From Acidobacteriota bacterium (GTDB taxonomy: Bacteria; Acidobacteriota; UBA6911; RPQK01; JADFOI01), in NCBI GenBank assembly GCA_022562935.1, contig JADFOI010000005.1:1-49478 (forward strand): 49,478 bases of DNA, written 5' to 3'. The notes beneath the pieces were generated by a model. It had not been told where the DNA came from. It saw only the letters and a program-made list of their open reading frames with translations, and made no database searches. Below, piece after piece: positions 7,151 through 8,473 of this stretch. The translations under genes and the position numbers were made by a program. The first letter of the stretch is position 1; the number at the start of each line of letters is the position of its first letter.

Positions 7151-8473
7151 ATGCTGACGTCATTCATGGAGCGGATCAAGCAGATTACAGATACTTGGGT
7201 CTCTTTTCTCCTTCAATCGGCAGCGAAGTTTGGGAACGAACTCACCAAGGAGGGCAGGGAGGACCAGCGGTTGTGGCGTCAGCAGCGGCTCAGGGATCTC
7301 CATTTCACGCCATCCAAACCGGTGACAACAAAGCGCCAAAAGATCGTCATTCTGGGAGGCGGAAGCGGCGGTCTGGTTGCGGCTACACAGTTGGGCAGCA
7401 ATCTGGGCAAAGATCACGACGTGATCCTGATTGATCGACGATCCCAACACATTTTCATGCCGGCCTTTCTCTTTCTCATGGTGGGTCAGAGACAACCGAA
7501 GGATATCGTGCGGAATCTCAAGAGACTTGAACAGCGCAATGTTCAAGTGATCCAGTCTGAGATTGAGGGGATCGATCCGAAGCGACAGCAGGTCCTGTTG
7601 GATAGCGGTCCCATTTTCTACGACTACCTGATCATCTCACTCGGCATGCGGACGGCACCTGAGTTGCTTCCCGGGTTTGCTGAGGCAGCTCAACACAGCT
7701 GGGAGTTGGAGGCGACACTGCGCTTGCGAGAGACTTTGGAATCCTTTGAAGAAGGGCGGATTCTGGTGGGTGTTCCGCCCGGTCCCTACCGCTGCCCTCC
7801 TGCACCCTACGAAGCACAATGGATGCTGGATAGTTATTTTCACCAGCGGGGAATGCGCGATAAGGTGAAGATCGAATTCTTCACCCCTGCTCCGGAGCCT
7901 GCAGGAGAAGATCGCACTCCTGCGGTTTGGATGGACAGACAGAGCAAGAAACGGGGAATCCAGCAGCACTACTCTTTCTCCGTCCAGTCCATCGATGCCC
8001 AGCGCAAGGTCGTCAAGGCTCTGTATGGCTTCGAACTTCCCTACGACCTGCTGTTCCTGGTACCGCCCCATCAGCCGTCTCAGGTGCTGCTGGACAGCAG
8101 CCTGGTGGAAACAGGAAGCGGCATCCGGGTGGACTACGATACCCTGGTGACGCGGTGGGGCAATGTGTACTGCATCGGCGACTGTGCCGACATGCCGGTC
8201 TCTAAATCGGGCGGCGTTGCCCACCAGCAGGCTGAAGTCGTGGCCCACAATTTGACTGTAGAGCTGACGGGTGAGGGAGAACCGACAACGCTTCGCCTCC
8301 ACACCTTGTGACTGCTTGCCTTCGGCGTGGGACGCGCCGCCGCCAATCGTACGACTTACCCGACAGGCTGGCCTCCCTTCGGAATGCCTGAGAGTCGTAC
8401 CTGGGGCCCGTCTCGGTTGATCTACTGGGGAAAGGTCGGCTTTGAAAAATGGTGGCTCTGGCGCTACTTCTAG
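7151..8473 (+). CDS. Sulfide:quinone oxidoreductase-like FAD flavoprotein with in-frame TGA at 8309-8311; candidate selenoprotein of 440 residues (Sec387)
   Basis: 'KIVILGGGSGGLVAATQLGSNL' (FAD motif), 'YDYLIISLGMRT', 'YRCPPAPYEAQWMLDSYF' (conserved SQR Cys region), 'NVYCIGDCADMPVSKSGGVAHQQAEVVAHNL'. After TGA the same frame continues LLAFGVGRAAANRTTYPTGWPPFGMPESRTWGPSRLIYWGKVGFEKWWLWRYF*, typical of an SQR C-terminus. Confidence 0.72.
8312..8346 (+). promoter_or_regulatory. Candidate bacterial SECIS-like hairpin downstream of the UGA
   Basis: CGGCGU(8323-8328)-GGGAC loop-GCGCCG(8334-8339), 6 bp including a terminal U-G. Lower helix UUG(8316-8318)/CAA(8344-8346). Apical loop starts with GG, 17 nt after the UGA. 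Confidence 0.5.

Follow-up and report, generated by a model that had tools for sequence, protein, structure and literature searches.

A Probable Selenocysteine Codon and SECIS Hairpin in an Unannotated Lineage of SQR/FCSD-like Flavoproteins

We consider the in-frame UGA at 8309-8311 of the window (the whole 49,478-nucleotide stretch of DNA that was analysed), which, judged by comparison with orthologs, almost certainly codes for selenocysteine (Sec). The fuller reading, in which this UGA encodes Sec and the hairpin at 8323-8339 is the bacterial SECIS of a Sec-containing SQR/FCSD-like enzyme, is one that we hold with high confidence. Comparison establishes that the UGA is coding, that its column is a Cys/Sec column, that the RNA stem is under selection and that every Sec gene is there. 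The frame that begins at 7151 is closed by the TGA after 386 codons, and reading through this codon adds 53 more, up to the TAG at 8471-8473. The region around the UGA reads TTG-TGA-CTGCTTGCCTT-CGGCGT-GGGAC-GCGCCG. A standard gene caller ended the gene at the UGA, i.e., at an active-site residue. The features are collected in Table 1.

Table 1. Coordinates in the window of the flavoprotein gene, its proposed recoding elements and the gene upstream
Feature	Position	Strand	Remarks
DHDPS-family gene, upstream	5948..7108	+	Syntenic with Sec-SQR in relatives
Probable Sec-containing SQR/FCSD-like flavoprotein gene, complete	7151..8473	+	440 residues with UGA read as Sec387 and a TAG stop; open through one TGA
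N-terminal segment, residues 1-57	7151..7321	+	Separate ORF of 63-69 aa in Binatia relatives
Cys215 codon (PYRCPP)	7793..7795	+	Nearly invariant column (alignment A1); counterpart of Cys201 in human SQOR and predicted redox partner of Sec387
Codon before UGA	8306..8308	+	TTG here; ATA in 20/23 orthologs
Almost certain Sec codon UGA, residue 387	8309..8311	+	All 23 orthologs have TGA and the Cys homologs TGC/TGT; counterpart of the second redox Cys in SQR/FCSD, Cys379 in human SQOR
53 codons 3' of UGA	8312..8470	+	Two beta strands and C-terminal helix; exactly 53 in all 23 loci
Very probable SECIS stem-loop	8323..8339	+	5' arm 8323-8328, loop 8329-8333 (GGGAC), 3' arm 8334-8339; pairing in 23 sequences and frozen third positions
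True stop codon TAG	8471..8473	+	From the sequence and the ortholog frames

The comparison uses 23 orthologous loci, the window included, that were collected by protein searches from Acidobacteriota, Candidatus Binatia and MAGs labelled Deltaproteobacteria, Proteobacteria or Syntrophobacter, and whose 3' parts can be aligned at 59-90% identity. The peptide patterns that fetched the genome_contigs loci left the UGA uncovered, so these loci carry no bias to UGA over Cys forms. Every one of the 23 has TGA at the Sec column, and in each the frame runs for exactly 53 codons past it before a TAA, TAG or TGA. Over these codons the protein is kept and the third positions vary. Distant homologs, at 34-40% identity, carry TGC or TGT in the same column, and the residue there is Cys, the second redox cysteine of SQR and flavocytochrome c. 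Alternatively, the UGA could be an ordinary stop, so that the protein would have 386 residues and the frame beyond would be incidental or a decayed remnant. While the gene caller does end there, and GC-rich hairpins after a TGA are not rare (65 of 1773), this reading has to face 53 conserved codons with synonymous-type variation in 23 genomes, an extension that provides two beta strands and a C-terminal helix, and Cys homologs that read straight on through the column, and we give it almost no weight.

The hairpin, taken from the window sequence by itself, is good but not decisive, and it is the conservation among the orthologs that is decisive. The 6-bp stem that the earlier note had described (CGGCGU-GGGAC-GCGCCG, with a terminal U-G pair and a loop 17 nt from the UGA) is present in the sequence at 8323-8339; in addition, G8329 can pair with C8333 to give 7 bp and a GGA triloop at 18 nt, with an energy of -10.0 kcal/mol. 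Of the lower helix that was proposed along with it, UUG (8316-8318) with CAA (8344-8346) over a 4x4 internal loop, only the presence in the window stood, because 18 of the 23 orthologs cannot form two of its three pairs. As a part of the SECIS this unconserved helix, 47.8% paired over the 23 sequences, is ruled out.

The bSECIS rules call for a stem of 4-16 bp, a loop of 3-9 nt, a G among the first two loop bases, a distance of 16-37 nt from the UGA and an energy at or below -7.5 kcal/mol (PMC13188914). As had been claimed, the hairpin agrees with these rules in its position inside the coding region just 3' of the UGA, its loop G and its spacing, and it does so too in its stem and loop size (7 bp with 3 nt, or 6 bp with 5 nt) and its energy. 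In all 23 sequences the first or second loop base is G and the spacing is 17-18 nt, and 22 of them have an energy of -7.5 kcal/mol or lower, the exception being one ortholog (L044) with a weaker hairpin of 5 bp and -6.2 kcal/mol. The caution that chance hairpins are frequent in GC-rich DNA was also justified. Under a bSECIS-like rule (4 or more stem pairs, a G as first or second loop base, spacing of 16-37 nt, energy at or below -7.5), 65 of the 1773 TGAs on both strands of the window pass, and the hairpin of UGA 8309 ranks 20th. Its energy is not significant against synonymous recodings of the same peptide, 61% of which are equally or more stable. So the hairpin exists and is unusually good, but with that many TGAs passing a comparable rule, and an energy that is normal for this peptide, it decides nothing by itself. 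An Rfam scan of the window gave no match above the gathering scores.

A lack of structural conservation among UGA-containing orthologs had been named in the earlier note as the finding that would overturn its proposal. The comparison shows instead that all 23 sequences keep the UGA and that, of the 138 cells which the 6-bp upper stem takes up in their alignment, 137 (99.3%) are paired. The compensatory changes that the earlier note had suggested as a check of the stem were sought in the same alignment, and no two-sided change was found, because the stem partner is always a first or second codon position that is fixed by the protein. With no covariation, the support rests on synonymous constraint instead. 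Among the third positions in the stem, Gly +5 is GGC and Arg +8 is CGC in 23 of 23 sequences, Ala +9 is GCC in 20 of 23 and the third base of +4 is C in 22 of 23, whereas the third positions of +6 and +7 in the loop use all four bases. Parsimony steps were counted over 52 fourfold and 34 twofold columns on a tree built without the hairpin region. Columns +5 and +8 take 0 steps, as compared with 2-13 for the other 50 fourfold columns (the median of all 52 is 7) and with 6 and 7 for the loop columns +6 and +7; column +4 takes 1 step, the fewest among the twofold columns. A covariance model (R1) finds the hairpin of UGA 8309 as its sole match in the 3.4-Mb genome, which, as the model was trained on the orthologs, is a check of specificity and not an independent proof.

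These counts support selection on the RNA stem, in the form of synonymous constraint and not of covariation, and the hairpin at 8323-8339 is very probably a genuine selenocysteine-insertion signal. The stem codons could, on the other hand, have been kept for another cause (codon bias, translation speed or a DNA motif), with the SECIS located elsewhere. The frozen GGC and CGC are common codons in GC-rich genes, and covariation is absent, both of which would suit such a cause, but the third positions are frozen in the stem only while the adjacent Gly and Ala codons of the loop vary freely, and no further block of synonymous constraint was found within the 53 codons 3' of the UGA. We consider this alternative very unlikely.

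The genome from which the window comes has the machinery that a Sec codon needs: SelA, a full SelB of 643 aa with winged-helix domains, a tRNA-Sec (71.4 bits) with a UCA anticodon, and a SelD (L085) that itself contains an in-frame UGA, in SCAGUASKL. The SelD hairpin, TAGCACC-GGA-GGTGCTA, has 7 bp and a loop 17 nt past its UGA. Of the 23 genomes examined by way of the ortholog loci, 19 gave a SelB and 4, probably incomplete MAGs, did not. The presence of SelB is necessary but weak evidence, since half of the sampled phylum (99 of 199 genomes) has it. There are two very similar SelB copies in the window's own genome (L001 and L002, on contigs C24 and C19), one of them cut at a contig end, and they may reflect a strain mixture in the MAG.

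UGA-C-type contexts favour readthrough, and the UGA might be recoded without Sec, by near-cognate readthrough that inserts Trp or Cys, with the hairpin merely stimulating it. The UGA-C context and the ATA before the UGA are conserved in most orthologs, as this would have it; yet homologs have Cys and not Trp at this residue, the genome has the complete Sec machinery, and the hairpin both fits the bSECIS rules and matches the SelD hairpin of the same genome, so that recoding of this kind seems exceedingly improbable. The 23 loci, together with the Cys in the homologous column and the Sec genes, led us to reject an ordinary stop, a sequencing error and Trp recoding.

With the UGA read as Sec, the protein belongs to the SQR/FCSD superfamily, with an FAD-binding Rossmann fold and two predicted active-site redox residues. 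It contains the Pfam domains Pyr_redox_2 (FAD/NAD-type) and FCSD_central, its closest solved structures in a PDB sequence search are human SQOR and flavocytochrome c sulfide dehydrogenase, and its predicted structure matches the fold of human SQOR (6oi6) with an E of 2.5e-31. Residue 387 aligns with SQOR Cys379 and Cys215 with Cys201 (numbering from PMC11039317); in SQOR, Cys379 bears the sulfane sulfur that is passed to the acceptor and Cys201 engages the FAD (PMC11039317). In the AlphaFold model, strands are found at 384-392 and 395-402 and a helix at 422-439, and the last 53 residues make up two strands and the C-terminal helix, so that a protein ending at the UGA would lack a part of the fold.

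Combining this structural information with that of the hairpin, we propose the following mechanism. The hairpin, whose apical loop contains GG and lies 17-18 nt past the UGA, would recruit SelB-GTP-Sec-tRNA-Sec, and the ribosome would then insert Sec at the UGA instead of stopping. Another 53 residues would complete the SQR/FCSD-like FAD enzyme, in which Sec387 would replace the second redox cysteine and pair with Cys215 beside the flavin. By analogy, Sec387 may be the sulfur-accepting, acceptor-facing residue: as in human SQOR, sulfide sulfur would be taken up at Sec387 and handed on, and the electrons would pass through FAD to a quinone or another acceptor. Sulfide is the likely substrate.

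Sulfide oxidation is a plausible role for the enzyme. The gene order in relatives is haem-oxygenase-like, cyclase, DHDPS-like, small ORF and Sec-SQR, and the conserved cluster upstream of the Sec-SQR is seen in L024, L027, L028, L036 and others. A persulfide dioxygenase-rhodanese gene adjoins the Sec-SQR downstream in five relatives and is absent from the window, which retains the DHDPS-like gene and a Sec-SQR whose N-terminus is the fused small ORF. The ORF that matches these 57 N-terminal residues lies just 5' of the gene in two relatives (L027, 2989-3198; L028, 3010-3201), and neither the small ORF nor the N-terminal segment has a Pfam match. In all 20 orthologs with Ile before the UGA the codon is ATA, and every other Ile column tested is mostly ATC; three Acidobacteriota have TTG or CTA there. 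The ATA is possibly an upstream context effect on the decoding of the UGA.

We now relate the protein to the Sec-SQR that is already known. The sole close NCBIfam model is NF049943 (type III sulfide quinone reductase, selenoprotein subtype), against which the protein scores 249.7 bits with a cut-off of 525. According to the accessible text of PMC12013277, this Sec-SQR was first reported by deep-Sep, as a "NAD(P)/FAD-dependent oxidoreductase" in Desulfosediminicola; the same text names only Desulfosediminicola as a host examined for that selenoprotein and mentions TGA homologs elsewhere without giving their names. The NF049943 selenoprotein is also listed in PMC13188914. A literature search for selenoproteins in Binatota found none.

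In a tree of 58 rows, the 13 Sec rows of the present type form one clade (100/100) that is sister to 20 FCSD-like Cys proteins and stands apart from the NF049943 Sec rows, and forcing all the Sec rows into one clade is rejected (p-AU 2.3e-5). On the score and on this separate position, membership in NF049943 was not accepted. The topology, in which long branches are flagged, suggests that an independent Cys-to-Sec conversion in the present lineage is likely. Cys rows branch among the NF049943 Sec rows, and Sec and Cys may have been switched in both directions within that group. The protein is a second, unannotated lineage of the known Sec-SQR kind. With moderate confidence we favour the view that this SQR/FCSD-like lineage evolved independently, that it spans Binatia/"Deltaproteobacteria" and one Acidobacteriota family, and that it is universally Sec in the sample, with its own SECIS, a conserved rare AUA before the UGA, a conserved gene cluster and a substrate that is perhaps not plain sulfide.

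Current annotation would cut the enzyme at the UGA, and the NCBIfam selenoprotein model falls short of the present lineage. Two separate Sec lineages at one redox position of SQR-like enzymes, if true, would indicate repeated selection for selenium in sulfide/sulfane-sulfur chemistry. The frozen synonymous sites provide a clean natural case to define the minimal SECIS in lineages known mostly from metagenomes.

Compared with the bSECIS consensus, the hairpin has the same location right after the UGA, a stem of 6-7 bp, a small loop that starts with GG, and a spacing and energy in the expected range (the latter in 22 of 23); the differences are only normal variation, and its primary sequence is unlike that of the NF049943 genes or SelD. 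The SelD hairpin shares its design (7 bp, GGA loop, 17 nt) and is unrelated in sequence. The SECIS design is thus ordinary, and the interest lies in an unannotated and probably independent Sec lineage. With human SQOR (6oi6) and flavocytochrome c sulfide dehydrogenase (1fcd) the protein shares the two-dinucleotide-binding flavoprotein fold and two aligned redox cysteine positions (Cys201/Cys379 with Cys215/Sec387); it differs from both in the predicted Sec in place of the second Cys, an identity of about 22% and the fused N-terminal segment. With NF049943 it shares the SQR superfamily fold, Sec at the same column and an HxxU motif (HTLU/HTIU here, HATU in NF049943), LHTLU being aligned with GHATU/GHANC. 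The Sec members of that family (L095, L097, L099, L100, L104 and the fragment L114) carry their UGA in that column too and have a near-identical SECIS among themselves which, unlike the hairpin at 8323-8339, is of the GAGAAGGG-GUCC-CCUUCUC type, with an 8-bp stem and the loop GUCC located 26 nt from the UGA.
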